The notes below the pieces were generated by a model. That model saw nothing but the letters and a program-made list of their open reading frames with translations. It searched no databases and had not been told where the DNA came from. From the NCBI GenBank assembly GCA_024403115.1, contig JAKSSL010000002.1, positions 1-64,000 on the forward strand: 64,000 nt of DNA, given 5' to 3'. Positions 4,878 through 25,355 of the stretch are shown here, piece after piece (the first letter of the stretch is position 1; each line of letters opens with the position of its first letter). The translations under genes were made by a program, and so were the position numbers. The DNA is from Clostridia bacterium. GTDB taxonomy: Bacteria > Bacillota > Clostridia > Peptostreptococcales > Anaerovoracaceae.

Positions 4878-4882
4878 GGTTT

Positions 4883-5254: not shown

Positions 5255-5330
5255 TCTTTCGACAAACACTAAGAATTAAAAGCTTGTAAACACTAGATTC
5301 AAAGGCTTTGTAATTATGAAATATCGACAT

Positions 5331-5359: not shown

Positions 5360-5362
5360 GTA

Positions 5363-7018: not shown

Positions 7019-7032
7019 ACTATCACCTCTTA

Positions 7033-7830
7033 TTACTTTACATTATCATCGTGAAGATCGGAACCAGATGTTACATGCATATGGAAACGACCTGCAATTT
7101 GTACAAATTCAAAGCATTCCTTTTCGCTATGGAATGGATGGAAAGCTTCTACGCCCTTTAAACCATATTCTTTGTACTTTTTAAGCATTAAAGCAATGTT
7201 TTTATAGAATTCTTTGCTTTCTCTTTCACCAATTTTCTTTGTTTTACCAGGATGAGCAAAGACAGGCATTCCACCAGCATTTGCAATTAGTTTAATTGCT
7301 TCTTCTGGCTTAATGCGTTCCATTTTAACGGCTTTAACCCTTTCATCTAAAAGTATCTTATCAAAGGCTTCTTGATAGTCTTTGGCATATCCTTTGTTGA
7401 CTAAAGCTCTTGCAAAATGAGGTTTACCATAATATTTTTGCTTTTCATGCTGTGTTAAATCCTCATAAGTAAGCTCATAACCCATTTCATTTAAAACTTG
7501 AAGGAGTTTGTCGTTTCTAACTTGCCTTCTCTTCTTGGCTTCCTCTACATATTCTAAAAGTTCTGGGTTTTCTTCATCGAAATCATATCCCAAAATATGA
7601 ATATTGATTCCATCTTCGTTTCTACATGATATTTCAATACCATTAATAACCTTAATTTCAACGGCTTCTGCTGCAATTTGAGCCTCTGTAAGCCCTGAAA
7701 TAGTATCGTGATCTGTAATGGAAATAATATCATAGTCTAATTCCTTGTATTTCTTACAGATATCTGTTGGCTTTAACATGCCATCTGAATGAGTGCTATG
7801 AATGTGATAATCAACCTTATATTCGTCCAT
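7033..7830 (-). CDS. PHP-domain phosphoesterase (TrpH/RNase AM-like)
   Basis: 265 residues. The N-terminus VDYHIHSTHSDGMLKP carries the first metal ligands (HxH...D) of the PHP fold. TDHDTISGL and the later VFAHPGKT and TSGSDLHDDN supply the rest. This subgroup includes enzymes that remove phosphate from 3',5'-nucleoside bisphosphates and trim RNA 5' ends (established for the E. coli relative); which activity applies here cannot be read from sequence. The ATG lies 8 bases beyond the stop of the membrane-protein gene, with AGGAGG close before it. Its immediate neighbour is a beta-CASP ribonuclease, which makes a role in RNA turnover plausible (inference). Confidence 0.88.
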   Translation of the reverse strand: MDEYKVDYHIHSTHSDGMLKPTDICKKYKELDYDIISITDHDTISGLTEAQIAAEAVEIKVINGIEISCRNEDGINIHILGYDFDEENPELLEYVEEAKKRRQVRNDKLLQVLNEMGYELTYEDLTQHEKQKYYGKPHFARALVNKGYAKDYQEAFDKILLDERVKAVKMERIKPEEAIKLIANAGGMPVFAHPGKTKKIGERESKEFYKNIALMLKKYKEYGLKGVEAFHPFHSEKECFEFVQIAGRFHMHVTSGSDLHDDNVK

Positions 7831-7838
7831 AATACCTC

Positions 7839-8561
7839 CTAATATTGCTTTACAAACAAAACTTTTCGTCTTGTAAGCTTATATGTTATATAAAGAAATG
7901 CTAACGCTAGTATTACTGTAAAAATAGTCTGTGTATAGCCTATAAAATGGCTATAATCATCGTTTAATATTAATATTCCTAAGTTGGCTTTCTTAGATAA
8001 ATGAGCGGCTGATACAAAGCCCAGGCTCTTCTTATACAAACTGCTTACAAACATTAATATGTCTAAAGCTATTGTAATTATTCCTGTTACAAACATACTA
8101 AGCTGATAAGCTAGGAAAAGTTGTTCCTTTCCCCTTCGCTTTATCATGTATAAGTATGCTATCACCTCAACAACTAAAGCCCCCAGACCTATTAAAGTTA
8201 TGAAGTTTAATTTATCACGAAAATCTAGTAAAAACTGCTCTTCTTTATCATTGAAAACAGGATCAACACTATATCCATTATCAATATTAATATTCACATC
8301 GTCGCTAAAAGACAAAAAGAAATCACCCATTTTAGCTGACATCTCAGCATTTGAGAGCGTGATATTTGTGTTGTAAAGGTTTTCCGACTCGTTTAGATAG
8401 TAGGAAAACACCTCTTCTGATCTAAAAACCAGGTTTAATGATAAAGTGATGATTATAATGGGCATCAACAAAATTGTAGTTGTTTGAAATAGCCTGTATA
8501 GACTTTTCTTGCCCTCTTTCACCTTTACTTTTCTGTAATTTTCAAGCATTAAATTTCTCAT
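7839..8561 (-). CDS. Membrane protein, DUF1461-like
   Basis: 240 residues with an N-terminal membrane segment (about residues 25-46), an extracytoplasmic region of about 70 residues, then three further membrane segments (about 118-138, 153-172 and 213-230). Order and topology resemble the DUF1461/TIGR01906 integral membrane family, whose members have one N-terminal helix, an external domain and a C-terminal helix cluster; this match is by overall pattern only. No catalytic motif was recognised. The start at 8561 has AGGGGA upstream; an ATG four codons later is also possible. It lies in the middle of the TM2-PHP-ribonuclease operon with gaps of 13 and 8 bases. Function unknown. Confidence 0.6.
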   Translation of the reverse strand: MRNLMLENYRKVKVKEGKKSLYRLFQTTTILLMPIIIITLSLNLVFRSEEVFSYYLNESENLYNTNITLSNAEMSAKMGDFFLSFSDDVNINIDNGYSVDPVFNDKEEQFLLDFRDKLNFITLIGLGALVVEVIAYLYMIKRRGKEQLFLAYQLSMFVTGIITIALDILMFVSSLYKKSLGFVSAAHLSKKANLGILILNDDYSHFIGYTQTIFTVILALAFLYITYKLTRRKVLFVKQY

Positions 8562-8574
8562 ATTATTCTATCCC

Positions 8575-8874
8575 CTAAAAATACCCATCTTCAGAGCATG
8601 ATACTTTAACTATATCAACTATCCAACCAATACCAAAGCATCCACCTGTTAACAGCCATATTATTCCCGTACCTATTTTGCCATTAACAAATCTAGGGAC
8701 ACCTAACATTCCTAAAAAAATGGTTAATAGCACTAATATTAGTTTTCTATCGCTCATAGAAGAGCTACGAGTTTCTCTTTGATATTGTTCCCCATCCTCA
8801 GATGTTTTTGCTCCACAATTAGGACAATAGTTTACTTCATTAGGAAGTTCATGCCCACAATATTTGCAATACAT
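8575..8874 (-). CDS. Zinc-ribbon plus TM2 domain membrane protein
   Basis: 99 residues. The N-terminus is a zinc ribbon with two CxxC pairs (MYCKYCGHEL and NYCPNCGAK). After a short Ser/Arg linker comes a TM2 domain: a hydrophobic helix (LILVLLTIFLGMLGVPRF), a turn with Gly and a basic residue, and a second helix (IGTGIIWLLTGGCFGIGWI) leading to a DIV motif. TM2 proteins are small membrane proteins of unclear function. AAGGAGAT lies 7 bases before the ATG. It is the first gene of the four-gene operon and has an extended -10 promoter just upstream. Confidence 0.88.
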   Translation of the reverse strand: MYCKYCGHELPNEVNYCPNCGAKTSEDGEQYQRETRSSSMSDRKLILVLLTIFLGMLGVPRFVNGKIGTGIIWLLTGGCFGIGWIVDIVKVSCSEDGYF

Positions 8875-8897
8875 AATTCCATCTCCTTGTTCAATAT

Positions 8898-8903
8898 ATT
8901 ATA
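8898..8903 (-). promoter_or_regulatory. -10 element of the TM2 operon
   Basis: TATAAT preceded by TGT, an extended -10; the matching -35 position reads TTTATT and is weak. It lies between the XRE-gene terminator and the TM2 ribosome binding site. Confidence 0.5.
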
Positions 8904-8922
8904 ACACTATTTATCTAAGAAA

Positions 8923-8946
8923 TAAACAGGTCGCAAAGTGCGACCT
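8923..8946 (-). terminator. Terminator after the XRE regulator gene
   Basis: Minus-strand stem AGGTCGC / GCGACCT with loop ACTTT and trailing GTTTATTT; it overlaps the stop codon of the XRE gene by two bases. Confidence 0.75.
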
Positions 8947-9151
8947 ATTCATCAATAATCTCACCCCATTTTACATCATAAACTGAAACCCCTAGAATCT
9001 GACAAACTTGAATCGCATTTGTAACAGAAGGTATTTTCCCTTCTCTTTCCCATGCGCTTATAGTGGCATAGCTTATACGTGTCAAGTTTGCCAAAGCTCG
9101 AAGTGACAAATTCTTGCTTAATCTCACTTCTCTAATATTTAGCTTTTCCAT
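8945..9151 (-). CDS. Small XRE-family (Cro/CI-type HTH) regulator
   Basis: 68 residues from the ATG at 9151, which has GGAGG 5 bases upstream; a TTG four codons earlier overlaps that ribosome binding site and is rejected. The whole protein is one helix-turn-helix domain: LSLRALANLTRISYATISAWEREGKIPS matches the XRE helices 2-3, followed by AIQVCQILGVSVYDV, the usual closing helix. No effector domain is attached. It is a stand-alone gene between the TM2 operon and the SEL1 gene, each side closed by a terminator. Targets unknown. Confidence 0.9.
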   Translation of the reverse strand: MEKLNIREVRLSKNLSLRALANLTRISYATISAWEREGKIPSVTNAIQVCQILGVSVYDVKWGEIIDE

Positions 9152-9225
9152 GTAAGCCTCCAACTAGCTTTTCCTAAGCTTACATATATTATAAACATTG
9201 GCAAGTCCCTTTAACGGTACTTGAA

Positions 9226-9256
9226 TAAAAAAAACAGCAAATTAATGCTGTTTTTT
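9226..9256 (-). terminator. Terminator after the SEL1-repeat gene
   Basis: Minus-strand stem AAAAAACAGCA / TGCTGTTTTTT with loop TTAATT and a following T run; ends the DUF6485-phosphatase-AIM24-SEL1 operon. Confidence 0.9.
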
Positions 9257-9257
9257 G

Positions 9258-10109
9258 TTAATTATTTTTGTAATTCGCCATGAGCTTCTTTGCTTCTTCT
9301 AAACTCTCAGCTGCAAAAGGATCTCCCTTCTCCACACGTGCCTCAAAGCCCGAAATCGCGTCTGTAAGAACGTTTATGATGCTGTTCGGGTCAAAACACC
9401 TTGAACAGTATTTAATAGCCCACAAGAAGGCTTCTGGGAAGCTTTCATAATCCATCATTTGGCTTGCATCTTCAAAAGCTTTCATTATTAAAGCATCTGC
9501 GAAATCATCATTAGTATCAAGAGTTCCATCTCTATAGAATTCTGAAAGTAGATATGTTCCTCTTACGTCACCGAATATGGACGCCATTTGTAGGTTCAAA
9601 AGTGCTTTTTCTCTGTCCTTTTCAACACCTAAACCCTCTAAATAGCAATAACCTAAATATCCTGTTCCTACAACGCTTCCATCATTTTTTGCTTCTTCAA
9701 AAAGTTCCTTTGCTTTTACAAAATCTTTTTCTCTAAAAGCTTGCAAGCCTTTGATATACAATTCCATATCTGGACTTGGATCTTCATATGAAAGAATAAC
9801 CGAAATCTCATTTTTACGAAAGCGAATAGCATCAGTAAAAGGATTGATGATTAATCCGCTACATTCATAAGTGTCCATAACTGTTTTGAACAACTCCATA
9901 AGATCCATATTTAACAGCTCTGGAGTATCTTTATCTTCTGTAACGGCTTCTTCTTCACTGGTAAATCCAACCATCAGATTATGGCCATCTTCATCTTCAA
10001 GAAATAGAAATGTTACTGGAAATTCCTCTGAGCTTACCAGATGATAAGCATCCTCCATTTCAACGGGAACCCAAATCTCATTACGACATTTTAAATCTTT
10101 CTTTTCCAT
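9258..10109 (-). CDS. SEL1-like repeat protein
   Basis: 283 residues from the ATG at 10109 (AAGG about 8 bases upstream; 4 bases after the AIM24 stop). The first roughly 110 residues form an acidic alpha/beta region with no firm family match, somewhat like SseB-type N-terminal domains. From about residue 112 the sequence becomes TPR-like: MELYIKGLQAFREKDFVKAKELFEEAK, then SEL1-type turns such as GYLGYCYLEGLGVEKDREKAL and TYLLSEFYRDGTL. SEL1 repeats mediate protein-protein contacts. There is no signal peptide. Last gene of the four-gene operon. The partner and role are unknown. Confidence 0.75.
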   Translation of the reverse strand: MEKKDLKCRNEIWVPVEMEDAYHLVSSEEFPVTFLFLEDEDGHNLMVGFTSEEEAVTEDKDTPELLNMDLMELFKTVMDTYECSGLIINPFTDAIRFRKNEISVILSYEDPSPDMELYIKGLQAFREKDFVKAKELFEEAKNDGSVVGTGYLGYCYLEGLGVEKDREKALLNLQMASIFGDVRGTYLLSEFYRDGTLDTNDDFADALIMKAFEDASQMMDYESFPEAFLWAIKYCSRCFDPNSIINVLTDAISGFEARVEKGDPFAAESLEEAKKLMANYKNN

Positions 10110-10113
10110 ATCA

Positions 10114-10791
10114 CTACCCTTGAGTAGGCATATACTTAATAATCTCCATAGCAGTGTTATACAATGGCATTGATTGTAGAACAACCTTTCCTGGGCCAGT
10201 AACTACTGTATTAAATATACCCTCTCCCCCTAATAATGCGTTTTTAACGCCACCAACTGTTTGTACATCTATTGAGCATGAAGCGTCAACCATTGCAAGG
10301 TATCCTGAATCGATAACGATTTTTCCACCTTCTGGTAAAACCTTTTCTTCAGCCATTCCGTCAATTTCTAAGAAAGCTATACCATTTCCTGAAATCTTTT
10401 GTAGGATGAAACCTTCTCCGCCAACTAAACCAACACCAACTTTCTTTTGGAAATATATTGATGTTTCAACTCCTGGTGTAGCAGCTAAAAATGCGGATTT
10501 TTGGCAGATTATTTCTTGGCCCGGTTTTACTTCTACTGCAATAATACTACCTGGAAAACTGGATGCAAAAGCAATAAGTCCAGGTCCACCTTGGGCAGTA
10601 TACTTGTTTTGGAAAATCTTTTCTCCGGAAAAAGCTTTGGAAAACATTTTTCCTAATCCACCGCCTGATGTTTCCATTAACATGTTAGATGACATCCATG
10701 CCATTGATCCACCTTCGCAAATCATGGATTCACCTGCATCTAATTTACATTCAACAACAGGCATTGGTGCACATTTAATCTCATAATTCAT
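10114..10791 (-). CDS. AIM24/TIGR00266 family protein
   Basis: 225 residues covering the complete AIM24 (DUF124) fold. Family features are the Gly-rich early turn GESMICEGGSMAWMSSN and METSGGGLGKMFSKAFSGE, the core motif AQGGPGLIAFASSFPGSI, then PGQEIICQKSAFLAATPGVE and the late strand GGEGIFNTVVTGPGKVVLQSMP. Bacterial members are soluble beta-rich proteins without a settled function; the mitochondrial namesake affects inner membrane organisation. AGGAGG lies 8 bases before the ATG. It lies between the tyrosine phosphatase and SEL1 genes in one operon. Confidence 0.9.
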   Translation of the reverse strand: MNYEIKCAPMPVVECKLDAGESMICEGGSMAWMSSNMLMETSGGGLGKMFSKAFSGEKIFQNKYTAQGGPGLIAFASSFPGSIIAVEVKPGQEIICQKSAFLAATPGVETSIYFQKKVGVGLVGGEGFILQKISGNGIAFLEIDGMAEEKVLPEGGKIVIDSGYLAMVDASCSIDVQTVGGVKNALLGGEGIFNTVVTGPGKVVLQSMPLYNTAMEIIKYMPTQG

Positions 10792-10812
10792 TTTCGTACC
10801 TCCTAATTGTAA

Positions 10813-11574
10813 TTATTCTAAAACTTTATTTCTGTACTTTTCTATATCTGCATCATTTAAACGTAAAAACTGTCTTACATAGTTGTCATCGTTTTTGTAA
10901 TGCTTGTCTATAGAATCAAAGAACAGATTCATATATTCTTCTTTAACTAGAAACATTTCGTGTACCAGATGTGCTAAATGTTCATCGCCACCTAGGGAAA
11001 TTACGCGATTATACTTTTCTAAAGCTTCTGTTTCAGCATAATCCAGGCTAAGCATATAGTCTTTCATTATTTCTTCACGGCTTACGCCTGCAATCAAAAG
11101 CAATGTAGCTGTAAGCATTCCTGTTCTGTCTTTTCCTGAAGCGCAGTGGAAATCTATGGCACCTAATTGATAATTAATCATAAAATTAACAATTGCTCTT
11201 AGATTAGTTCTTGAAAAATCATTGGTAAGCATTTCGGAATAAAGATCACCCATATTAGGAATCATGGACCATCTCTTCTCCTTGCTTGGTTCAGCTTTGA
11301 TTTGTTCAATTAATTTGCCATACCTATCCTGTTCAGTTTCCTTTTGAACGGGGAAATGCATATATGCTACATGGGGTATTTCGTCATCTGGTTTTCTAGC
11401 TACTTCAGCATCAGCCCTCAAATCTATGACGGTTCTAATGCCTTGGTCAAAAATATAATCTTTTTCATCAGGGCTTAATCCTCTTAAAAGCGCAGACCTG
11501 TAATATATACCTTTTTTGAAATGTCTGCCATCTTTTGTAGGAATACCACCTAGATCTCTAAAATTATTTATCAT
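10813..11574 (-). CDS. Tyrosine-protein phosphatase family protein (DSP/Y_phosphatase3 type)
   Basis: 253 residues. The P-loop HCASGKDRTGM (consensus HCxxGKDRTG) with catalytic Cys lies near residue 115. The N-terminal NNFRDLGGIPTKDGRHFKKGIYYRSALLRGL is the diagnostic start of this family. An Asp-containing loop after the first strand pair (VIDLRADAEVARKP) matches its general layout. Substrates in this family include phosphotyrosine and phosphoinositides; the substrate here is unknown. No signal peptide, so cytosolic. The start overlaps the end of the DUF6485 gene by 11 bases, indicating translational coupling. Second gene of its operon. Confidence 0.92.
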   Translation of the reverse strand: MINNFRDLGGIPTKDGRHFKKGIYYRSALLRGLSPDEKDYIFDQGIRTVIDLRADAEVARKPDDEIPHVAYMHFPVQKETEQDRYGKLIEQIKAEPSKEKRWSMIPNMGDLYSEMLTNDFSRTNLRAIVNFMINYQLGAIDFHCASGKDRTGMLTATLLLIAGVSREEIMKDYMLSLDYAETEALEKYNRVISLGGDEHLAHLVHEMFLVKEEYMNLFFDSIDKHYKNDDNYVRQFLRLNDADIEKYRNKVLE

Positions 11575-11773
11575 TTTCCTCCATTACCTTTTCAGCAAAG
11601 TCTTCATAATGCCAGCTATCCTTAACATTTTCTGTCTTTAGTGTATGCCAAAAGCATGCTGGAATTTCTCTTTCTTGCAAATTCTTTAAGATACATGGTG
11701 TACATCCTAAATCATGATTGCTTGGATGATTAGGACATGAAGTGTCTCCACAAGTACAAAAATCAACTTTCAT
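11564..11773 (-). CDS. Cys-rich DUF6485-like small protein
   Basis: 69 residues with nearly all cysteines in the first half: FCTCGDTSCPNHPSN, then LGCTPCILKNLQEREIPACFWHTL. The C, H pattern suggests metal binding. The sequence fits the DUF6485 family of short clostridial proteins as I recall it; function unknown. AGGAGG lies 8 bases before the ATG. First gene of the operon leading to the tyrosine phosphatase, AIM24 and SEL1 genes, with an extended -10 promoter at 11805. Confidence 0.8.
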   Translation of the reverse strand: MKVDFCTCGDTSCPNHPSNHDLGCTPCILKNLQEREIPACFWHTLKTENVKDSWHYEDFAEKVMEENDK

Positions 11774-11804
11774 ATTAGTTTCCTCCTGTAATTTATTTGT
11801 AGAA

Positions 11805-11810
11805 ATTATA
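11805..11810 (-). promoter_or_regulatory. -10 element of the DUF6485 operon
   Basis: TATAAT preceded by TGT (extended -10); no good -35 at the usual distance. It lies 32 bases before the first ATG of the operon. Confidence 0.5.
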
Positions 11811-11834
11811 ACACAAAAAACTTTTTAATACTAT

Positions 11835-11863
11835 AAAACTCAGGCCAAAATGACCTGAGTTTT
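11835..11863 (-). terminator. Terminator after the giant secreted protein gene
   Basis: Stem AAAACTCAGG / CCTGAGTTTT (10 bp) with a 9-base loop; 4 bases past the stop codon. The T-rich end is short but the stem is strong. Confidence 0.8.
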
Positions 11864-11867
11864 ATAA

Positions 11868-14800
11868 CTATTTTCTAGTCTTCTTACATTTTACTGATTT
11901 TACAGTCGAATACTTTGTATAAGCTTTAACGCCTAGGCTGCTTAATGTTAGATATCCTCTAACCTTAAAGTAATATGTCTTGCCCTTCTTCAAGTTCTTA
12001 GCGTTATATTTTACCCATGAAGAACTTGTACCGGCCTTAAATTTGCCTAATAAAGTATACTTACCGCTCTTCTTAGTAGATCTGTATACATAATAGTAAG
12101 TTGGCTTGTTTCCTAAGCCCTTCTTCCATGATAATTTGATCTTACCATTCTTCAAAGCTTGTACCTTCAAACTGCTTACAGTACTTAACTTAGTACTTGC
12201 TTCAATCTTCTTCTTTGCATCAGTCTTGTTAAGAAGAAGTGTTTCATACATCTTTGTAATGCTGAAAGTTACGCAGTCGTAAGAAGCTACAGTTGATTTC
12301 TTATAGTGGTAATTTCCATTCTTGTAAATCATGATAGTATCGCTTGGTTTCAATCCTTCTGGAACTGGTAATTCCAGCTTAATTGAAGCACCGCCAAAGT
12401 TTGTTAACTTGACAGTCTTGCTCTTGCTATCAACATAGGAAATATCACTCTTGTAAGAAAGCGCCGGACCACTTGTACCGCTTGGCTTTCCAGCTTTGAT
12501 GTTAAATGTTACTGGTTTTGAAGTCTTGGAATTAATATTCTTTAAAGCAGCATTGCTTATTTGAATACTTCCAGCTCTTGTCTTGATTTCTAAATCAAGG
12601 CCCTTGTTAGCTGCTTGCTTAACAAGATCCGAAGTCAATTTAACATGTGCATCGTCAACTTTTTCACCCTCATCATTTGCAATAACAACGGACAAAGTCT
12701 TTGTTGACTTAGGTAAATTGTTCAAAAGTTCATCCACTTGTTCTTTGCTTAGTTCACAACTTAATGAACCATCTTCAAGCTTAACATCATCGCCATCAAT
12801 TGCTATGCCTTGTGTATTCACATCTTGAATAATAAAGCTTGTAGTAATTGTGCCTTCATAGCTTCCTGTACCTATTGCCTTAACAACAGCAGTACCAGCT
12901 TCCTTATTATTTTCAAATGATAAAGCATAGTCTTTGCTTTCAACTAATACATTACCATTCTTATCCTTTACTACAACTTCAGGAACAATTTCTTCGCCTT
13001 TTGACTGTTGCTTGTAGAAATGCTCTGTTGTATTTACACTGTACAACTTGCCCTTCACAATATTAAAGCTTGTTTGAATTTCGCCTTGATAATTGTTAAT
13101 ACCTGTAAGAGTAATTGTTGATTCACCAACTTCAATGCGATTATCATAACTTACTTCAAAGTCCTCTCCTTCAGTTAAGCCCTCAATGCTAACTGTAGGT
13201 TTCTTAGGCTTGCCATCAAATTCGAAGTCAAAGTCTTTTTCTATTACAACTTCGCCTTCTAAAGTGGCTTGATTAATTGTGAATCTGTCATGGCTTGCAC
13301 CCTTATAGTTTCCAATTCCTGTAGCATGAACAAATGCGTGACCTGCGTCCACATTATCCTCATAAGTTAATTTATAATCTACATCTTCTTGTAGAACTTC
13401 ACCCTCAACTACACTGTTGATTACTACTGTAGGCTTATGTTCTTTTCCATTGTATGTAAATTCTATTTCACTTAATGATTCAATTTCAGGAAGATCTGCT
13501 TGTTCGATTGTGAAGTCATAGCTTACACTGCCGCTATAATCTGAACCGCTGCCATTTGCACTTGCAGTTACTGTTGCAGTTCCTGCATTTACATTGTTAG
13601 CGTATGACAAAGTATATTCATCGCTATCAACTGCATTTCCGTCTTCATCCAGAATTGTTACCAAAGGTTCAAAGGCTTCACCGTTATAAACGAATTTGTC
13701 TTGACTTAGTGAAACGATTTCTGGAAGTTGTAACTTAGTAATTTCAAATGTAGCATTTCTAGAACCTGTATAGTTGCTTTCTTGTAAAGCAGTAGCAGTT
13801 ACAGTTCCTGTTCCTACCTTGACGTTGTTTTCATAAGTTAAAGCATAATCGCTACCTTCTACTAAAAGCTTACCTTTAACAACACTCTTAATTGTAACAC
13901 TTGGCTTATGTGCTTTTCCGTTATATACGAATGTATCTTCACTTAATGAATCAATTCTTGGAAGTTGTGCTTTGTTAATTACAAACTTAGCAACTTGTGT
14001 TCCTGTGTAGTTACTGCTTTCCTTTGCAGTAGCTGTTACTTGCTTTTCACCGCTGTTGATCAAATCGTCGCTGTATACCAATGTGTAATCGTTTGATGAT
14101 ACTTGCTTGGATTCTTCGTAATCGCTCTTGATAGTAACGCTTGGCTTATGTTCCTTGCCATCAAAAGTATATTTACTTGCATTTAATGTAATTTGAGGAA
14201 GTTCTGCCTTATTGATTACGAAAGTCTTTTCAACATATCCTGTGTAGTTGCAATTTCCAACAGCACTAGCTTTTACTGTGGCTGTTCCAGCATTTAGGTT
14301 ATTGGAATATGTTAAGACATAATCTGTCTTAGCAACAGAATCCTCACCTTCAACTACGCTCTTAATATCTACTTCTGGCTTCCATTCCTTGCCGTTATAT
14401 ACGAACTTGTCGATGCTCAAGGAATCGATTGCTGGAAGGTCAGCCTTTTCAATTGTAAATGTGCTAATTATTCTGCCAGTATAATTTCCAATACCTTCTA
14501 CAGTAACGCTTACTGTATCTGAGCCTTGGGAAGCATTTACATTGTTCTTTCCGTAAGTTACCTTAAAGTCTGTATTTTCCTTTAATTCTCCCAGACTTAC
14601 TGTAGGAGTCTTAGCTTTTCCATCGAAAACATAATTGAAATCATCAGATGATGGTAATTTTGCTTCCATCTTTTCTATGGATTTCTTATTAATTGTAAAT
14701 GTTTCTTCAACTGTACCTTCATAATTGCTTTCAGCCTTTGCTGTTGCCTTTACTGTTGCAGTACCAGCATTTATGTTGTTTACATAAGTCAATGTGTAAT

Positions 14801-17800
14801 CATCGTCTGATACATTTTGACCCTTTACAACACTTGGAATTGTAACTGTAGGTCTGCATTCCTTACCTGAGTAAGTATATTCGTCTTGGCTTAAAGCAGT
14901 GATATTTGCTAAATCAGCTTTTTCAATTGTATATTTAGCTGTCTTCACACTTCCAGAATAGTTGCCTATACCTGTAATTGTGATTGCCTTTTCGCCAGCA
15001 TTTACGCTATCATCGCCGAAATCAAGCTTGTAATCTGTGTTTTCAACAAGATTGCCGCTAGCAAATTCATTCTTGATGCTTACAGTAGGTTTACATTCCT
15101 TAGCATTGAATGTGATCTTATCATAGGATAATGAAATATTGTCATCATTCAATTCAGCAGGCTTAATTGTGTATTCTTCATATAGCTTACCAGTATAGTT
15201 TCCTGTACCTGTTATGGTTATATGCTTTGTGCCTGCATTAGTGTGGTCTGCATCATAACTTACTGTAAATGTTGCATCGCTGTCTGATAAGCTTACGCTT
15301 GGTTCTTTTGCAGTTCCATCATAAACAAATTCATCTTCACTTAATTGAGCAGTCATGTCTTCAATGCTCTTCATGCCAATTAAGTAAGTAAGATTTGTAG
15401 TTCCAGCGTATTTATCGCCCTTTAAAGTAACAGTTCCTGTATATTCTCCCTGTTCTTTAAATGAACTTACTGGCTTTCCGCCATATGTCCATTGAATATC
15501 GTATTGAGATGTATCGATATTAGTTTTTGTCTCATCGATTTCAGGAGCATGTTCCTTACCATCATAGACTATTTCACTAAGTTTAAGTGCGATTTCAGCC
15601 TTTGGAATATCAATCTTTGTTGCTTCGTTTACTGCTCCGCAATTCTTACAGGATTCAGTGATTTGACCTGCCTTAGTGAAGCTTGCTTTTTCAGTTACTG
15701 GTGCAGCATAATCGTGTTCAATGCTGAACTGAGCACTTTGTGTACTCTTGTAATTTCCAATACCTGTTGCAGTTACTGTAGCTGTTCCATATGATTTGTT
15801 ATTTTCATATGTCAAAGTATAATCAGTGCCTTCAACTAAGGTATTACCTGCTACTAGGCTGTTAATCACAACACCAGGCTTATGTTCATTGTCATCGTCC
15901 TTATAACTTGTCTTGCTCAGTGATTCAATTTTTGGTAAATCGTGAGCTGTAATAGTGTATGTAGGACGAATTGTTCCTGTGTAATTTCCTATACCTGTTA
16001 CAGTTAAAGTCTTTGCTCTTGTAGAAACATTAACAGGATCTGCAGGTTCTGTAACATTAAATGTAACTCTTGTATCTGTAAAGCTTACACTTGGAACTTG
16101 CTTTTCTCCTGAGTATACAACGCTTGTAGCGCTCAATTGATATGCCATAGAAACTATGCTCTTAGGTGATATTGTATAAGTCAGTGTAGTTTCACCGCTA
16201 TACTTATCATCATTAATGTTTACAGTTCCTACATATGTGCCTGCGTTCTTGAAGCTACTTACTGCTTGGTCATTACATTTCCAAGTAATTGTATAGCCTT
16301 CAATATTTGTCTTTGAAGCATCGATTTCTGGAGCTTGTTCAGCTTCATTGAATGTTACACTTGTAGCCTTCAAAGCTAATGTAGCTGTTGGAATAGTTTC
16401 AAGTAATTCTTCATGATTACAATTCTTACAGAATTTAGAAATCTTTCCGTCCTTTGTAAAGCTTGCTTTTACAGTGATAGGATCATCATAATCATGTTCT
16501 ATCTTGAATGTAGCTGTTTGAGAGCTGTTGGAGTTATAGTTGCCCATACCACTTGCAACAACTGTTGCAGTTCCATATTCAGTATTATTTGAATATGCTA
16601 GAGTATAGTCTACGCCTTCAACCAATGTCTCTCCTTGAACTAGACTATTGATAACGACAGCTGGTTCATGCTTTGATTTATCATCAGTGTAGCTTGATGG
16701 ATTTACAAGAGCGATTGCAGGTAAATTAGCTGGATTAATTGTAAATGTTTTGCTTAATTCACCTTGGTAATTTCCTATACCTGTTACTATTACACTTGCT
16801 TGTCCCGCATCAACATTGTTAGCGTAAGCTACAACAAAGTCCTTATTGCTTACAAGTGAGCCTATTGTAACGCTTGGTTTGTTTTCAACACCACTATAAG
16901 TATAAGAAGTCTTGCTCAAGTTTACAGTACCACTTAATTGCTTTGGAGTAATCTTAAATGTCTTTGTGATTGATCCCTTGTAATCCTTAGTACCAGTTAT
17001 TTCTAAACTTGCTCCTTCAATAACATTATTGTCCTTATCGTAAGCAACATTAACATTATTTGTCCATTTTAGTGTATATTCACTTGTATCTAATGCTTGC
17101 TTGTCAGGTCCAATTACCTTTACTTGAGGAGTAATTGCTGAACCTGTGTAAACTGTTGATCCAGTCAATTCTACTTGATAATCGCTCAAATCGATTTGAT
17201 TGATATCAAAGTCAATTGTCTTAGAACCTGTACAGTTATTACCCTGTGCAGTAAATGTGACGCTTCCTGCATTAGTGCCTGCATTCTTATTGGAGCCATA
17301 GCTTACAGTGTAATCACTGTCCAATAAGCCATTAACTGTATAGCTTGGCTTTATTTGACTACCTGTATAATCATATGATTCCTTTTCTAGAGTAATATCG
17401 CAATTTGCGACATTTGCTTTTGCAATGTCGAAATACTTAGTGATTTCGCCCTTATAATTACCCTTAAATGTAATCTTAGCACTTGGCTTATCAACTACTG
17501 TTAGATTGATTGTTGCTTTATATGTATTGTAGGAAGACTTACCGCTTACTGTAATAGTTGTAGTACCTGCTTTTAACCCGTTAATTGTAACTGTAGCAGA
17601 CCTATTTCTTGATATTGAAACTGATTGGTCATTTCCTACAATGCCCTTTGGATCAGAACTTATTGTATATGTCAAAGTACTTGATGCAGTACTTGTAATA
17701 TTAAGCTTGAAACTATCTCCTGTAGCAATTTTCTTGTTTGAAGTAGTTCCGTTTCTGCTTGGAGTAACATTCAAATCAGAAGTATCTGAAGCAATTGATG

Positions 17801-20800
17801 CATTTACATTGTTACTGTATTCAACTTCATAATCTGATGTGTTAAGTTCTGTATCACCGTCCATGATTGTAAATACTGGTCTTTGCTTTTGACCATTATA
17901 TACAAATGGGCCTTCTTCCATATCTACGGACAAGTCATTAATTGACTTTTCAACAATCTTAAATGTTCCTGTTGATACGCCTTCGCAATTTGCTTTTGCA
18001 GTAACAGTAACACTTGCTGTACCAACATTCTTGTTATTTTCGTAGCTTACATCGTAGTTATCTGCTGAAACGATATTTCCTGCAGTATCTTTAACAACAA
18101 CTGCTGGAGTATGTTCAGTCTTATCATATGTAAACTCAGATGGCGTAATTGAGAAAATATTTTCAGCCAATTTAGCCTTATTGATTACGAAGTTTACTGT
18201 CTTAGAACCAGTATAGTTTCCTATACCTTGAACAGTAACGCTTGGTTTAAGCTCTTCTGTACCAACATTAACATTGTTGTTATAGGAAAGTGTGTAATCC
18301 TTGTTCAATGTTAATTCTTTGTTAGTTACGCTTGGCTTATGAGCTTTTCCATCGTAAACATATTCTGTATCGCTTAATTCAATTTCAGGAAGTTCACTAG
18401 GTAAAATTGTGAAGTTCTTTTCCAAAGTACCAGTGTAATTTCCCTTTCCTGCTATGCTTACTAAAGCTTTGCTACCAGCATTAGTATTATTTGAATAAGT
18501 TACAGTAAAATCTTCATCCTTAACTAGTCCACTAATTGAAACTGTTGGTGTCTTTGCTTTTCCATCAAAAGTAAATTCATCTTCGTCAAGTAAAGCAGTC
18601 ATCTTTTCTATTGATTGTTTCTCAATAGTATATTTTGAATTGATAGTTCCCTTATAGTTACCAATTCCTGTTATTGTAATGCTGTGTTCACCTGCATTTG
18701 TAGTATCTTCATCAAACTCAACAGTAAAGTCTTGGTTAAGAACTAAACCGCTTAATGAAACATTAGGTTTTTGTGACTCACCATTAAATGTAAAGCTTGC
18801 TGGTGATAGTACAGGAGTCATATTTTCTATTGAAGCCTTTTCGATAACATATTGGAAAGTCTTAGTTCCGGAATACTTATCCTTATCCAATTTTGCCTCT
18901 ATAGTATATGTTCCTTCATTAATAAATTTACCGTCCCATTTTTCATCCTTATCTTTTGAGTAAGATATTGTAAAGTCTTGAACTGGAAGATTTGTCTTAC
19001 TTGTATCGATTTGCGGAGCTTGTTCTTTACCGTTAAATGTTGTGACGTACTTTGTCCAAGCTATTTCTGCCTTAGGAATTACTTCATCAACAGTTTTATC
19101 TGAACAATTCTTACAAATTCTATAGATTTCTCCATCTTGTTCAAAGCTTGCTTTTGTAGTAATAGGATCACCATATTCGTGAACGATGTCAAATGTGGCT
19201 TTTTGCACACCAGTGTAATTGCCCTTTGCTGTGGCAATAACTGTAGCTTCTCCAACGGCATCATTTTTCTCATATGACAATTCATAATCTGTCTTATTTA
19301 CAAGAGTTTCACCCTTTACTACGCTATCAATAACAACATCAGGTTCCTTTGGATCTTTGTCATCATAGAAGCTTGCAGGACTTACCTCTTTGATACTTGG
19401 TAAATTTGCAGGATTAATCTTAAATGTCTTGTTTACAGTTCCTGTGTAGTTTCCGCCTAGTACGGCTTGAGCAACAACAGTAACTGTGCCAGCATTAGTA
19501 TGGTCTTTGCTATATGAAACCATATAATCGCTGTTTGTTAAACTTCCAATCTTAATTGCAGGAGTCTTTGCTGATCCGTCATAAGTGCATTCTTGATATT
19601 CAATCCATGTAATGCTTGGAAGTTGTTTTTGTTGAATTTCAAATGTCTTAGTTGAACTACCTTGATAGTTACCGCTTGCAGTTGCAGTAGCAGTTACTGT
19701 AGCAGTTCCAGCATTTACATTATCTTTATATTCAACTACGAAGTCCTTATTAGAACCCTCATATAAGCCGGTAATTGTAATCTTAGGCTTCTTTTCACTG
19801 CCATCGTAGACAATGTTGTCAGCGCCGCTTATTGATGTAATCTCAGGAAGATTTGCTTTCTCAATTGTGAAAGTGCCATCAATAGTACCTGTATAGTTTC
19901 CTATACCACTTATACGGAATTGAGCTGTTCCAGCCTTGATATTATTGCCATATGAAACTTCAAAGTCCTCATCTTCAACCAATCCATCGATTACAGGCTT
20001 TGGAGTTTTTGCATTCTTGTCATATACATAGTCGAATGAATCCTTGTCAGGAAGTGTATATGATTTCTCGCTTAATGAAGCAGGTTCAATTGTAAAGTTT
20101 ATAGTCTCGTATCCTTGATAATTACCTAAACCTTCAATTTTTACACCTGGCAATTTGTCATCATCAGTAGGAACATCGATATTGTTCAAATACTCAACGA
20201 TGTCATAATCAACACCCTTAGTTAAACCTTCAATAAGAACATCTGGTTTTTTCTCCAATCCATCATAAACGAATGAATCTTGAGATAATGAAATCTTATC
20301 TTCAGGTAATCTTGTCTTAACAATATAGAAGTCGCCTGTAGCAGTTCCAGTATAATTGCCTTTACCTGTTACAGTAACTGTAACCTTACCGATATTCACA
20401 TTATCTTCGCCGTAATCTACTGTGAAATCCTCATCAAGTTCAAGGATCTCATCTTCATACAAGCCAAGAATAATAGGCATAGGTGTTTGAGCTTCTCCAT
20501 TGAATTCACATTCTTCTGGGTCAAAAGCTACTATATCAGGAATTTGAGCAGGATTAATTACAAACTCGGCTTCCACTTCACTCTTGTAATTTCCTATACC
20601 CTTTGCAATAACTTTTGCTTTACCTGCGTCTACATTGTCTTCATAAGACAAAGTGTAATCTCTATTTAATACAAGATTATTCTTGTCACCAAATTGGCTT
20701 GCAATTTCAACATCTGGTGTTATTTCATAAGCAGTATATGTAAGCGGAGCGCCTACAACGCTTGTAATCTCAGGTAAATCTATTGAATTAATTGTGAATT

Positions 20801-23800
20801 CCAATTCGACTTCTCCAGTATAGTTGTTTATACCGGTAAACTTAACAGTAGCTTTACCTGCATTCAAATTGTTAGAAACTAAGCAAGTATAATCTGTATC
20901 TTCTGTTAGATCTGTTATTACTGTTGGATCAATTGCTTGTCCACAATAATCAAATTCATCTTCTTCTAAACTGAAATCGCTTTCAGTAAGTTCTTTTGGA
21001 AGAATATCAAAATTCATCGAAGAAGTTCCTGAGTAGTTTCCTATACCTTCTACTGTAATAGTAGGAAGATTTTCAGAATCTGAAGGAACATTAATGTTAT
21101 TTACGCATTCCTTAATTACATAGTCAGTTTCGTATTCAAGACCGTCTATGAATACATCAGGAAGGATTGGCTCACCAGTATATTCGAAGCTGTCTTGGGA
21201 TAGGCTTGAAATATCTGGTAAATCCGCAGGCTTGATAGTAAATGTAAGCTCAGTTGTGCCTTCATACTTATCGCCCTTTAAAGTGATTGTTCCAGTATAA
21301 TTACCTGCATCAATCAGTTCATCCAATGTGTTACCATCAGAATTCTTCCATTGAATTTCGTAATCTTCATCTTCAGTTAAAATATTTCCTTCTGTATCAG
21401 CAATACTGATGCTTGGCATCAAATCATCTCCGTTGTATGTACCATCTTCTGGATTTGATGGTGCAACAAGCTTAGGAATGACTGTTGTTTCAGCTTCCTT
21501 ACAGTATTCGCAATATCTATCTATTGAACCTGCTTTTTCAAAGCTTGCAGGAGTATAGATATAATCACCATAATCATGGACAATCTGGAATTCGCCATCC
21601 ATTGTACCTGTATAATTGCCCTTTGCAACAATCGTGTATGAAGCTGTACCAACATTAGTATTGTTTAAGCATTCAATACTGAAATCAGTATCTTCAACTA
21701 AATCAATATCACCATATTTAATGCTAAGTGAAGGAATATGTGAAGTTCCATCGTGTAGGAATGGTCCTTCTTCAATGTCCACATCAAGCTCTTCTAAAGC
21801 CTTAGGTGAAATTGTATATTCTTGGCTCAAGGAATCCTCATAGTTGTTTACACCTGTTATCTTTACTGTAGGCATTCCATCTAAACCGCCTACATTAACA
21901 TCATTAAAGTATTCAACTATGTAATCCTTGTCTTCACCCTCTTCTAATACAGTATTTCCAACTTTTACTGTAACTGAAGGATGAATTTCTGAACCTGTAA
22001 ATACAAATGGTCCTTCTTCCAAAGATAAAACACCAGTTCCATTTGACAATGAAAGTGGTAAAATTTCAAAATGCTTTACTACAGTTCCTGCTACACCATT
22101 AATACCTATAATAATAACATCAGCAATACCAGCCTTCTTTGAACTGTCATAATCAACTGTGAAGTCCACATTCTCAGTCAGTCCCTCAATTGTAACCTTT
22201 GGCTTATTCATTGAACCAGAATAAATACAAGTTTCATATTCTAGACTGATCTTATCTTCAATATCTTCAAGATTTTGTTTAACTATATCAAATTCTAGAA
22301 CTGTTGAGCCTGTGTAGTTGCCTTTGAAAGTGATTGTAGCTGTAGCCTTAGAATCTTCAGTAGTCAATTGGATATTATTATCATATGTAATATCGTAATC
22401 AATTCCTTGTACCAAAGTCTTTTTAGCACTGTTAGTGATTACAGCAAGAGGTTTAATTTCTTGTCCAGCATAAACATATGAACTCTTTTCTAAAGCTATG
22501 CTCTTAATCTTGCCAACCTTGATTACACTATCGTAATCCTCAGCCTTGACAAAAATTTCACCCGCTTCGTCTAAGAACATATCTCCGCAGACGTCGCACT
22601 TGAAGTATTCAATATTACCTGCACCTTCTGTGCTTGAAGGAACTGCATCTACCTTTGAAATCTTGTGTCCATCAGGGTCTGGTCCTACGAATGTAGCTTC
22701 TTCTTCAAGACCTTCGCTAGAAGTTCCGCACAAGCAGCTTACATAGTATGTTGCAGCTTGAGTACAAGTTCTTGGTGAAGCTATAAAAGCATCATCCATT
22801 ACTTCTTCAGTGAATTCATGAGTATGATCTCCTAAATCAACGCTTAAGCTAACAGGATCTGTATAAATCACCTTACCGCTATATACATGTGAAGTATCAG
22901 TATCAATTAAATTGTCTGATAAGTATTCTAATTTACAACGGAATTGTGCTTCGTCTAAATCAACTTTTACAGAATCAACTACATAATCATCCTCATTTTC
23001 ACCTTCTATATCTACCCATTGGCCTTCCACTAGTTGTTGCCATTGGTATGTATCAACAGAACCTGTATCGCCTGTTATACCAGCAGATAAGTCTAGTCTA
23101 TCAAATACATTTAATTCTGTTTCTCCATCGATAGTAGTTTCAGGGTCTGAAACAGCTAATTGGTCATCTAAGAATGAAACCCTCTTAGTTAAGTATTCTT
23201 TCAAATTATAGCTAAAGTCTTCTGGAGCATCTGTCTTATGATAATCCACACCATAAGGGTCGGTAGTAAGCTTTGTATTGTAATATCTATAAACATCGCC
23301 TGAAACTTTATCTGCTTTTCTTGAAATTTCAACATTAAAGTGTTCTTTACCGTGATATAGATCATCTGGCCAACGAATATAGTTCATATTTGCTGAATCA
23401 ATAATATCTTGAGATATGTCATCTACCCATTGTGGCATTTCAGCAAAATCATCTGCGTATTCATTGTATAGTTGATATACTCTCTTCATGAAGTCATCGT
23501 GTTTAGCAAGTAAAGTAAAGAAAGAATTCCTATCCTTATCAATGTACCAGCTACCACCACTTCTTTCGGAGTCGTGATTAATGCTAAGCCAAGTATTGCT
23601 TATACGACCCATTGTTCCATCTAAATCCCAAATTGGTCCAGCAACTAGCTTATCCTCTGAATTCATGCTTTGTTTAGTGAAGAATATACTTCCTGCACTG
23701 GCATCACAATCCTTATATAGCTCATTTAACAAATACATTTTTGCCCATGAATCTACATCAATATAGTCTTTATAGGCGTCAGAGGTAGTGTTTTTTAAGG

Positions 23801-25205
23801 CATTAACAGCTTGAGTAATATAATCCCATACTGGTTGATGATCAGCAGTAAGCTCGTCGCTTCCGTCCTTGTAAGTAAATTTAATACCATTAATAGTTTT
23901 TTGATCTGTATCATTCAAATTATCAATTTCAACCATAAATCCTTCATCAGGACATTGATAATCGTTTTTAGGACAAATAGTGTAATTCCCTAAGTATTCC
24001 CCGTTCATATAGACATCAACGAAATCCAATTGTAGACCAATACCAAGTCGTTGAGCTATATCCTCACCTATTTTGTTTCTTAGACATGATGGGTCCTTAG
24101 CATTTGCTAAAATACTATACTTGGATGATGTTACACCACTTACGATCTTATCTGTTACCTTGTTTTTCTTAGGTAAATTTTCTGGATCGCTTATTGCTTC
24201 TTTGTATAAAGTGATGTTGTATGGTTTTTTGGCAAAATCTTTCCAAGTAGTATTTCCTCTACCCTTCATAGCCATAAAGTAGTTTTTACCACCAAGAGTT
24301 AAATCACCATAACAACGTGTTTCGTGGTTTGAATCTTTATTCATGGCATCAATTGTTCCCATTGATTCATCCACGTTAAAGAACAAAGCTCTAACCTTTG
24401 TTGATCCTTGTAACACATTTTCAAATTCTAAATCGCAATAATCATCATCAAAATATGCTTGTACATTTTTAGCTGATTTAGCCTGTGCAACGGATAATTC
24501 TCCAGATGCATAGTAAGTATCGCCAATTTTAATTCTTAGTATATTATTACTCCAATTAATGAAGCACTTGCTTAAATCTGCACTGCCTGGCATGTAAATT
24601 GATGCCAAGTACTTATCAACACTTGAAGTTGATTGTCCTGCTTCAAGGGAAACTTTTACATCACCATCTAAACCGTTATCCTCAGTTTTTGGAATTGTAA
24701 GTGCTTGTTTCAACAAAGGTGTGTTGGAAACAATGACAGTAATATTGGCATATTGAACACCACTAGTGCCTGTAGATTTTAATGTAATCTTTGTAGTTCC
24801 TGTGGCAACTGCTTTAAACTTAATTGTTGCTTTTCCTCTGGAACTAATTACAAAGCTGGATTCACTACCAATATAGTCAACAACACCTGATTTACTAAAT
24901 GTAGGCTTATTAAATGTTTTTGAACTGTATGATTTATTTGTTAAATTAATATTCAAATATTCTCCAGGAGACAGTTTTACAGTTCCTGAATCAACAGTGC
25001 TTGAACTTGATGAATCAACTGCCAATTCAACTGGAGTTGAATCTATTGTGTATTGACCATTAGCATCATCAATTGCAGAATTAAGGTCTAAGGTTCCACC
25101 ATAATTATCCGCATCCCCTGTTACGCGAACAGCGGAAAAAGCCATAGTCGGCATATACGTTACCAACATAATAAATGATAATAATAGTGTTAAAAGTTTT
25201 TTCAT
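11868..25205 (-). CDS. Giant secreted CotH-kinase and Ig-like repeat protein (about 4,445 aa)
   Basis: Starts at the ATG at 25205 (GGGGGG 8 bases upstream), not the GTG two codons earlier. Signal peptide at about 1-25 (MKKLLTLLLSFIMLVTYMP...AFS). A beta-rich region leads to a CotH-kinase-like domain at about residues 290-630: MKGRGNTTWKDFAKKPYNI, SILANAKDPSCLRNKIGEDI, FVDVYMNGEYLGNYTI and VAGPIWDLDGTMG. After an Ig-like segment and a Cys-containing segment come about 39 tandem beta-sandwich repeats (residues about 895-4125, 70-85 aa each). The consensus is roughly Y-[DN]-G-K-x-x-x-P-x-V, then DY-x-(L/V)-x-Y-x-NNVNAGTA, then GxGNYTGT. Four repeats are followed by an H-[DE]-Y linker with a CxxC pair. 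The C-terminus is a Fn3-like domain ending KKTRK. No LPxTG motif or SLH domain, so the surface anchor, if any, is unclear. It appears monocistronic. Role inferred: surface adhesin or scaffold; the kinase substrate is unknown. Confidence 0.9.
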   Translation of the reverse strand: MKKLLTLLLSFIMLVTYMPTMAFSAVRVTGDADNYGGTLDLNSAIDDANGQYTIDSTPVELAVDSSSSSTVDSGTVKLSPGEYLNINLTNKSYSSKTFNKPTFSKSGVVDYIGSESSFVISSRGKATIKFKAVATGTTKITLKSTGTSGVQYANITVIVSNTPLLKQALTIPKTEDNGLDGDVKVSLEAGQSTSSVDKYLASIYMPGSADLSKCFINWSNNILRIKIGDTYYASGELSVAQAKSAKNVQAYFDDDYCDLEFENVLQGSTKVRALFFNVDESMGTIDAMNKDSNHETRCYGDLTLGGKNYFMAMKGRGNTTWKDFAKKPYNITLYKEAISDPENLPKKNKVTDKIVSGVTSSKYSILANAKDPSCLRNKIGEDIAQRLGIGLQLDFVDVYMNGEYLGNYTICPKNDYQCPDEGFMVEIDNLNDTDQKTINGIKFTYKDGSDELTADHQPVWDYITQAVNALKNTTSDAYKDYIDVDSWAKMYLLNELYKDCDASAGSIFFTKQSMNSEDKLVAGPIWDLDGTMGRISNTWLSINHDSERSGGSWYIDKDRNSFFTLLAKHDDFMKRVYQLYNEYADDFAEMPQWVDDISQDIIDSANMNYIRWPDDLYHGKEHFNVEISRKADKVSGDVYRYYNTKLTTDPYGVDYHKTDAPEDFSYNLKEYLTKRVSFLDDQLAVSDPETTIDGETELNVFDRLDLSAGITGDTGSVDTYQWQQLVEGQWVDIEGENEDDYVVDSVKVDLDEAQFRCKLEYLSDNLIDTDTSHVYSGKVIYTDPVSLSVDLGDHTHEFTEEVMDDAFIASPRTCTQAATYYVSCLCGTSSEGLEEEATFVGPDPDGHKISKVDAVPSSTEGAGNIEYFKCDVCGDMFLDEAGEIFVKAEDYDSVIKVGKIKSIALEKSSYVYAGQEIKPLAVITNSAKKTLVQGIDYDITYDNNIQLTTEDSKATATITFKGNYTGSTVLEFDIVKQNLEDIEDKISLEYETCIYSGSMNKPKVTIEGLTENVDFTVDYDSSKKAGIADVIIIGINGVAGTVVKHFEILPLSLSNGTGVLSLEEGPFVFTGSEIHPSVTVKVGNTVLEEGEDKDYIVEYFNDVNVGGLDGMPTVKITGVNNYEDSLSQEYTISPKALEELDVDIEEGPFLHDGTSHIPSLSIKYGDIDLVEDTDFSIECLNNTNVGTASYTIVAKGNYTGTMDGEFQIVHDYGDYIYTPASFEKAGSIDRYCEYCKEAETTVIPKLVAPSNPEDGTYNGDDLMPSISIADTEGNILTEDEDYEIQWKNSDGNTLDELIDAGNYTGTITLKGDKYEGTTELTFTIKPADLPDISSLSQDSFEYTGEPILPDVFIDGLEYETDYVIKECVNNINVPSDSENLPTITVEGIGNYSGTSSMNFDILPKELTESDFSLEEDEFDYCGQAIDPTVITDLTEDTDYTCLVSNNLNAGKATVKFTGINNYTGEVELEFTINSIDLPEITSVVGAPLTYTAYEITPDVEIASQFGDKNNLVLNRDYTLSYEDNVDAGKAKVIAKGIGNYKSEVEAEFVINPAQIPDIVAFDPEECEFNGEAQTPMPIILGLYEDEILELDEDFTVDYGEDNVNIGKVTVTVTGKGNYTGTATGDFYIVKTRLPEDKISLSQDSFVYDGLEKKPDVLIEGLTKGVDYDIVEYLNNIDVPTDDDKLPGVKIEGLGNYQGYETINFTIEPASLSEKSYTLPDKDSFDYVYDKNAKTPKPVIDGLVEDEDFEVSYGNNIKAGTAQFRISGIGNYTGTIDGTFTIEKANLPEITSISGADNIVYDGSEKKPKITITGLYEGSNKDFVVEYKDNVNAGTATVTATATASGNYQGSSTKTFEIQQKQLPSITWIEYQECTYDGSAKTPAIKIGSLTNSDYMVSYSKDHTNAGTVTVVAQAVLGGNYTGTVNKTFKINPANLPSIKEVSPASFYDDKDPKEPDVVIDSVVKGETLVNKTDYELSYEKNDAVGEATVIATAKGNYTGVQKATFDIVHEYGDPITTKASFEQDGEIYRICKNCSDKTVDEVIPKAEIAWTKYVTTFNGKEQAPQIDTSKTNLPVQDFTISYSKDKDEKWDGKFINEGTYTIEAKLDKDKYSGTKTFQYVIEKASIENMTPVLSPASFTFNGESQKPNVSLSGLVLNQDFTVEFDEDTTNAGEHSITITGIGNYKGTINSKYTIEKQSIEKMTALLDEDEFTFDGKAKTPTVSISGLVKDEDFTVTYSNNTNAGSKALVSIAGKGNYTGTLEKNFTILPSELPEIELSDTEYVYDGKAHKPSVTNKELTLNKDYTLSYNNNVNVGTEELKPSVTVQGIGNYTGSKTVNFVINKAKLAENIFSITPSEFTYDKTEHTPAVVVKDTAGNIVSADNYDVSYENNKNVGTASVTVTAKANCEGVSTGTFKIVEKSINDLSVDMEEGPFVYNGQKQRPVFTIMDGDTELNTSDYEVEYSNNVNASIASDTSDLNVTPSRNGTTSNKKIATGDSFKLNITSTASSTLTYTISSDPKGIVGNDQSVSISRNRSATVTINGLKAGTTTITVSGKSSYNTYKATINLTVVDKPSAKITFKGNYKGEITKYFDIAKANVANCDITLEKESYDYTGSQIKPSYTVNGLLDSDYTVSYGSNKNAGTNAGSVTFTAQGNNCTGSKTIDFDINQIDLSDYQVELTGSTVYTGSAITPQVKVIGPDKQALDTSEYTLKWTNNVNVAYDKDNNVIEGASLEITGTKDYKGSITKTFKITPKQLSGTVNLSKTSYTYSGVENKPSVTIGSLVSNKDFVVAYANNVDAGQASVIVTGIGNYQGELSKTFTINPANLPAIALVNPSSYTDDKSKHEPAVVINSLVQGETLVEGVDYTLAYSNNTEYGTATVVASGMGNYNSNSSQTATFKIEHDYDDPITVKASFTKDGKISKFCKNCNHEELLETIPTATLALKATSVTFNEAEQAPEIDASKTNIEGYTITWKCNDQAVSSFKNAGTYVGTVNINDDKYSGETTLTYTISPKSIVSMAYQLSATSVVYSGEKQVPSVSFTDTRVTFNVTEPADPVNVSTRAKTLTVTGIGNYTGTIRPTYTITAHDLPKIESLSKTSYKDDDNEHKPGVVINSLVAGNTLVEGTDYTLTYENNKSYGTATVTATGIGNYKSTQSAQFSIEHDYAAPVTEKASFTKAGQITESCKNCGAVNEATKIDIPKAEIALKLSEIVYDGKEHAPEIDETKTNIDTSQYDIQWTYGGKPVSSFKEQGEYTGTVTLKGDKYAGTTNLTYLIGMKSIEDMTAQLSEDEFVYDGTAKEPSVSLSDSDATFTVSYDADHTNAGTKHITITGTGNYTGKLYEEYTIKPAELNDDNISLSYDKITFNAKECKPTVSIKNEFASGNLVENTDYKLDFGDDSVNAGEKAITITGIGNYSGSVKTAKYTIEKADLANITALSQDEYTYSGKECRPTVTIPSVVKGQNVSDDDYTLTYVNNINAGTATVKATAKAESNYEGTVEETFTINKKSIEKMEAKLPSSDDFNYVFDGKAKTPTVSLGELKENTDFKVTYGKNNVNASQGSDTVSVTVEGIGNYTGRIISTFTIEKADLPAIDSLSIDKFVYNGKEWKPEVDIKSVVEGEDSVAKTDYVLTYSNNLNAGTATVKASAVGNCNYTGYVEKTFVINKAELPQITLNASKYTFDGKEHKPSVTIKSDYEESKQVSSNDYTLVYSDDLINSGEKQVTATAKESSNYTGTQVAKFVINKAQLPRIDSLSEDTFVYNGKAHKPSVTIKSVVKGKLLVEGSDYALTYENNVKVGTGTVTATALQESNYTGSRNATFEITKLQLPEIVSLSQDKFVYNGEAFEPLVTILDEDGNAVDSDEYTLSYANNVNAGTATVTASANGSGSDYSGSVSYDFTIEQADLPEIESLSEIEFTYNGKEHKPTVVINSVVEGEVLQEDVDYKLTYEDNVDAGHAFVHATGIGNYKGASHDRFTINQATLEGEVVIEKDFDFEFDGKPKKPTVSIEGLTEGEDFEVSYDNRIEVGESTITLTGINNYQGEIQTSFNIVKGKLYSVNTTEHFYKQQSKGEEIVPEVVVKDKNGNVLVESKDYALSFENNKEAGTAVVKAIGTGSYEGTITTSFIIQDVNTQGIAIDGDDVKLEDGSLSCELSKEQVDELLNNLPKSTKTLSVVIANDEGEKVDDAHVKLTSDLVKQAANKGLDLEIKTRAGSIQISNAALKNINSKTSKPVTFNIKAGKPSGTSGPALSYKSDISYVDSKSKTVKLTNFGGASIKLELPVPEGLKPSDTIMIYKNGNYHYKKSTVASYDCVTFSITKMYETLLLNKTDAKKKIEASTKLSTVSSLKVQALKNGKIKLSWKKGLGNKPTYYYVYRSTKKSGKYTLLGKFKAGTSSSWVKYNAKNLKKGKTYYFKVRGYLTLSSLGVKAYTKYSTVKSVKCKKTRK
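17475..17805 (-). other. Extra Ig-like (Big_2-type) domain nested inside one repeat of the giant protein
   Basis: Within the repeat that begins INDLSVDMEEGPFVYNGQ, the usual NNVNAG...GNYKG stretch is split after VEYSNNVNAS. About 110 residues intervene (SDLNVTPSRNGTTS ... SVSISRNRSATVTINGL ... TTITVSGKSSYNTYKATI), after which the host repeat resumes with AKITFKGNYKGEITKYFDI. The inserted piece reads like a bacterial Ig-like group 2 domain. Approximate residues 2467-2577. Confidence 0.6.
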
Positions 25206-25355
25206 TGACACAGCCCCCCATATACAATGATTTTTTAGATTAGTAGAGTTTTAAAATTTTAGTATTTTATGTATAAACAATTACACTTATTACATATTAT
25301 ATACTCCTTTAAATTGTACTACTTTTTCAAGAATAAATAAAGCAAAAAAACATAT

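Follow-up and report, generated by a model that had tools for sequence, protein, structure and literature searches.

A giant, predicted exported protein with a CotH head, 39 Ig-like repeats and a basic C-terminal module in a Clostridia bacterium

Stalk proteins in which an enzymatic domain replaces the adhesive one have been described as 'fibrillar enzymes' (PMC9210967). The CotH domain is best known from the spore coat kinase of Bacillus subtilis, in which changes of D228 and D251 inactivate the protein (PMC7821199), but it has also been described together with LTD and Fn3 modules in cellulosomes, where its role is unclear (PMC6083626, PMC12484212), and near Pel genes in non-sporulating bacteria (PMC7112168). 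Here, we describe a single giant gene which joins a CotH domain to a long array of Ig-like repeats, found in a 64-kb stretch of DNA that was analysed as a whole and is referred to below as the window.

The gene lies in an open frame listed at 11868–25211 on the minus strand, as do all of its features given below. The frame encodes 4447 aa when counted from a GTG, and all residue numbers of the giant protein follow this count. An ATG at 25205 is preceded by a GGGGGG ribosome-binding site, and from there the open frame and its translation give a gene of approximately 4,445 codons (11868–25205) and a product of 486 kDa. The gene takes up 20.8 % of the window, which confirmed the claim of an earlier note that one gene fills about 21 % of it, and added the strand, which that note had not named. 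The first residues, MKKLLTLLLSFIMLVTYMPTMAFSA (25131–25205), read as a plain signal peptide. Hydropathy over the N-terminal region, taken in stretches of 15 residues, peaks inside this segment, and a paralogue in the same genome has a closely similar start.

The gene stands alone, with a hairpin-terminated tRNA cluster on one side and, after its own stop codon, a second hairpin (ACTCAGG-CCTGAGT followed by TTTTATAG, 11838–11860), which we read as a probable terminator from the sequence, while a terminator scan did not flag it. The annotated flanking genes are mostly housekeeping genes, and the G+C content equals that of the surroundings. The genome itself measures 1.08 Mb in 50 contigs and is 97 % complete. 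Just downstream, a gene for a Y_phosphatase3 protein without a signal peptide is encoded on the minus strand (10813–11574), and a small Cys-rich ORF (11582–11772) lies between it and the giant gene. This phosphatase was considered as a partner of the CotH protein and is probably unrelated, given the missing signal peptide, the probable terminator and the intervening ORF. Elsewhere in the window (37764–39491, minus strand), an exported protein of 575 aa combines Ig-like repeats with an N-terminal part that may be amidase-like; its Pfam matches were weak only.

Behind the signal peptide, the sequence suggests an N-terminal Ig-like domain (approximately residues 28–165, 24717–25130), for which the only match was a weak one, below the cut-off, to Pfam Inhibitor_I42 at residues 112–146. 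It is followed by a domain that we term pre-CotH (approximately residues 166–280, 24372–24716), which the sequences of relatives with the same CotH subfamily have in common; in agreement with this, the match to the paralogue starts well upstream of the CotH domain. The CotH domain itself covers residues 281–690 (23142–24371). Pfam CotH (PF08757) matched residues 318–618 with E=1.7e-20 and 74.2 bits against a cut-off of 23.8, spanning profile positions 4–299 of 322, and the signatures GRGNTTW, NGEYLGNY and GPIWDLDG were located at residues 318–324, 403–410 and 525–532, respectively, so that the reading of clear CotH signatures near the N-terminal end stood.

We then compared the domain as a subfamily, using an alignment of five sequences (A1) made up of the window CotH, its paralogue and relatives in the genomes G018, G182 and G115, all five of which matched Pfam CotH. 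The A1 profile matched the Bacillus cereus CotH structure 5jd9 with E=1.7e-4. Against a profile built from further secreted CotH proteins it reached probability 100 and E=2.1e-42 over 369 columns, and this second profile matched 5jd9 over its full length with E=3.7e-10. A PDB search with the whole giant protein gave no match. A single-sequence structure model of the CotH domain reached a pLDDT of only 36 and was not used; the assignment of the CotH fold thus rests on the profile matches. Judged by these, the head is genuinely related to CotH.

The two aspartates that are essential in B. subtilis CotH are 23 residues apart, which is exactly the spacing from NFD to WD (WDYD) in 5jd9. Their columns correspond to D503 (codon 23703–23705) and D529 (codon 23625–23627) of the giant protein, and Asp is invariant in both across 33 aligned CotH proteins and within the subfamily. 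Two other positions differ. Ser508 aligns by profile with an Asn of 5jd9 (first Asp +5), and Ser is found there in 20 of the 33 CotH proteins and also in secreted relatives. The Glu of the YLLxE motif, present in 27 of the 33 and in 5jd9, is replaced by Pro414; this Pro is invariant in A1 (5/5), and a relative in genome G535 likewise reads TPK. The head thus seems equipped to bind metal, while its site for the nucleotide may not be the usual one, and kinase activity is uncertain because the Asn is Ser here and a near-invariant Glu is Pro throughout the subfamily. Two large CotH proteins found elsewhere carry a phosphatase-like domain in the same frame, Y_phosphatase3 in one (L066, G126:C30, 3235–7521) and a calcineurin-like phosphoesterase in the other (L067, G096:C1, 6305–13000); a polypeptide that unites a kinase-like with a phosphatase-like domain hints at extracellular phosphate chemistry.

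A linker (residues 691–906, 22494–23141), in which Ig-like and His/Cys modules are seen, leads from the head to the array of MBG-type repeats (residues 907–4129, 12825–22493). An HMM built from the protein's own repeats gave 40 matches over the array, each with E≤4.1e-11, two of which (2431–2475 and 2540–2599) together make up a single repeat interrupted by an inserted Ig-like domain (approximately residues 2472–2573, 17493–17798, limits approximate). The array thus consists of 39 repeats over 3,223 residues, in line with the previous estimate of about 39 repeats and some 3,200 residues. Pfam MBG_3 was matched in nine stretches, and His/CxxC modules interrupt the array near residues 1212, 2011, 2906 and 3166. 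A model of a single repeat, made from its alignment with 33 further copies in the window, predicted a beta-sandwich (pLDDT 97), and comparison of this model with the PDB (Foldseek, VIA) returned weak Ig-like matches only, to LigA, S-layer proteins, Rib and complement C5 (Z ≤5.3). The repeats share a mean pairwise identity of 33 %, adjacent copies are no closer than remote ones and no tandem repeats were found at the DNA level, which together indicate that the array is old.

Beyond the repeats lies a domain (residues 4130–4330, 12222–12824) that also occurs in an 1810-aa protein of the same genome, and the protein closes with a basic Fn3-like module (residues 4331–4447, 11871–12221) ending in KCKKTRK. 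The last 117 residues contain 32 K/R and 2 D/E, as against 375 K/R and 652 D/E in the rest of the protein. Homologous modules with the same CKKTRK end close two further products of this genome, the 1810-aa protein on contig C3 and a protein piece on contig C26. The former (L057, G000:C3, 6458–11887) is a second large MBG-repeat surface protein, lacking CotH and likewise ending in KCKKTRK. Modules of this type were found in 45 of 198 genomes of the family, and in 15 of the 16 distinct proteins examined the copy ends no more than nine residues from the stop. The earlier note had described the protein as lacking an LPxTG or SLH anchor. This held in the literal sense, as no LPxTG-like motif was found in the giant protein and the entire genome, which has one sortase gene, gave no SLH domain; the protein is nevertheless probably not unanchored, since the basic module recurs at protein ends and relatives with the same head have SLH or dockerin in its place. 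These relatives end in three SLH domains (G182) or in Dockerin_1 (G535), and that of G018 in a different Lys-rich domain, while more distant CotH proteins of the same class end in dockerin or, by eye, in SLH-like regions. Dockerin, which is present in the relatives from G535 and G491, had no Pfam match in the giant protein. From these domain orders, the CotH head is a module of the cell surface whose means of attachment can be exchanged, and the tail is probably a retention module equivalent to SLH or dockerin that would keep the fibre at the surface. The basic Fn3-like tail, common to many proteins of the family, is a candidate module for surface retention of a kind not yet described.

The paralogue on contig C35 shares 42 % identity with the window CotH. 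It is the 5' part of a gene (L056, G000:C35) and the C26 piece a tail (L079, G000:C26, 6860–7594), both cut by contig ends, and the two may belong to a single further giant CotH gene as its opposite ends. CotH was found in 62 of 198 genomes of the family; the subfamily of the head is rare, and among 398 sampled genomes of the phylum strong matches were confined to G000, the genome of the window, and G535. The G535 protein (L101, G535:C32, 6223–8799), encoded in a genome of another class, combines the same CotH subfamily with a dockerin and scored 649 bits with A1, which suggests horizontal transfer of the head. No relatives of the head were found in the viral contigs searched, and a plasmid search returned one CotH protein, from Pseudobutyrivibrio, with 25 % identity. 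When residues 3–781 were compared with genome contigs, the only match was a weak one of 44 residues in Bacteroidales. CotH was not found in the congeneric genome G001, whose contig stops 99 bases beyond the same tRNA-Cys, where the giant gene would begin, and is not usable as an empty site. Also noted was a protein of 3,793 aa (L065, G082:C16, frame 839–12220) with two CotH domains, four LTD domains, Ig-like domains and a dockerin.

The reading that we prefer, and to which we give an even chance, is that the giant protein is a cell-surface 'fibrillar enzyme'. It would be exported by the general secretory route, as its signal peptide suggests, and retained in the envelope by the very basic Fn3-like module, probably through charge or binding to a wall polymer. 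The 39 MBG beads, at an assumed length of approximately 4 nm each, would add up to a stalk very roughly 150 nm long, holding the pre-CotH and CotH head away from the cell. The head would dock on surface or neighbouring proteins and, if catalytically active, phosphorylate their Ser/Thr residues with the kinase-like site of D503 and D529. There is little ATP outside cells, and cytoplasmic ATP is out of reach for a protein once Sec has exported it in unfolded form; both points count against an extracellular enzyme, as does the change of Glu to Pro in the subfamily and that of Asn to Ser, although Ser is found in the majority of the aligned CotH proteins. A broader form of this reading, that heads with Pro for Glu have been exchanged between bacterial classes and joined to the attachment of each host (basic Fn3-like, SLH or dockerin) as active, stalk-displayed extracellular kinases, so that non-sporulating bacteria would have a system for phosphorylation beyond the cell, appears unlikely.

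The strongest competitor, tentative in its turn, is a fibrillar adhesin in which the CotH fold was kept and its activity lost, the silent head serving as a binding domain that the stalk shows to a host, a plant fibre or a partner cell. The fixation of Pro for Glu in the subfamily and the low level of extracellular ATP fit such a head. In agreement with this, the adhesive domain is mostly N-terminal in fibrillar adhesins of Firmicutes (PMC9210967), and fungal CotH proteins are described as host-receptor ligands (PMC12211043). A purely structural domain need not, however, retain the two essential aspartates, which are invariant in 33/33 CotH proteins and in the subfamily.

The secreted, unanchored matrix filament implied by the earlier note is improbable; the missing LPxTG and SLH would suit it, but not the recurrence of the basic module at protein ends or its replacement by SLH or dockerin behind the same head. 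We consider it about equally improbable that the fibre modifies itself, the head phosphorylating its own repeats or the Lys/Ser-rich tails of its own and sister proteins and so altering charge or wall binding. B. subtilis CotH does phosphorylate a coat protein, CotB, on its Ser-rich repeats (PMC7821199), Ser and Thr make up 19 % of the giant protein and the tail modules repeatedly contain STKKS, yet richness in Ser/Thr is usual in surface stalks. A spore coat protein as in Bacillus, which only the family name would favour, is hardly credible, because no SpoIVA was found in this 97 %-complete genome whereas the B. subtilis control matched, and because the protein has an export signal.

If the head of this putative fibrillar enzyme is active, the phosphorylation of proteins outside bacterial cells gains a clear test case; even if it is silent, CotH heads serve as interchangeable surface modules. 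In either case, a genome of 1.08 Mb puts more than 1 % of its DNA into one surface fibre. No paper on this combination of traits was found in the literature searched, which is not proof of absence. The traits themselves are known ones combined, and the new details are the length of the stalk, the Pro of the subfamily and the basic tail.

Among the described systems, fibrillar enzymes and adhesins (PMC9210967) resemble the giant protein in being large and exported, here by prediction, and in having an N-terminal functional domain, a repeat stalk and a C-terminal attachment region, which is putative in the giant protein. It differs from them in its CotH head, in the 39 MBG repeats and in that a basic Fn3-like tail stands in place of a standard anchor. 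The cellulosomal CotH proteins, such as C. thermocellum Cthe_0044 and Cthe_0239 (PMC6083626; their role is reviewed in PMC12484212), are likewise secreted CotH domains in modular surface proteins, and the G535 relative links the same subfamily to a dockerin, while the giant protein lacks a dockerin and has a very long Ig-like stalk. The spore coat kinase CotH (B. subtilis; B. cereus 5jd9/5jda) belongs to the same domain family and has both essential aspartates; unlike it, the giant protein is of giant size, is predicted to be exported, is encoded in a genome without SpoIVA and carries Pro for Glu and Ser for Asn.
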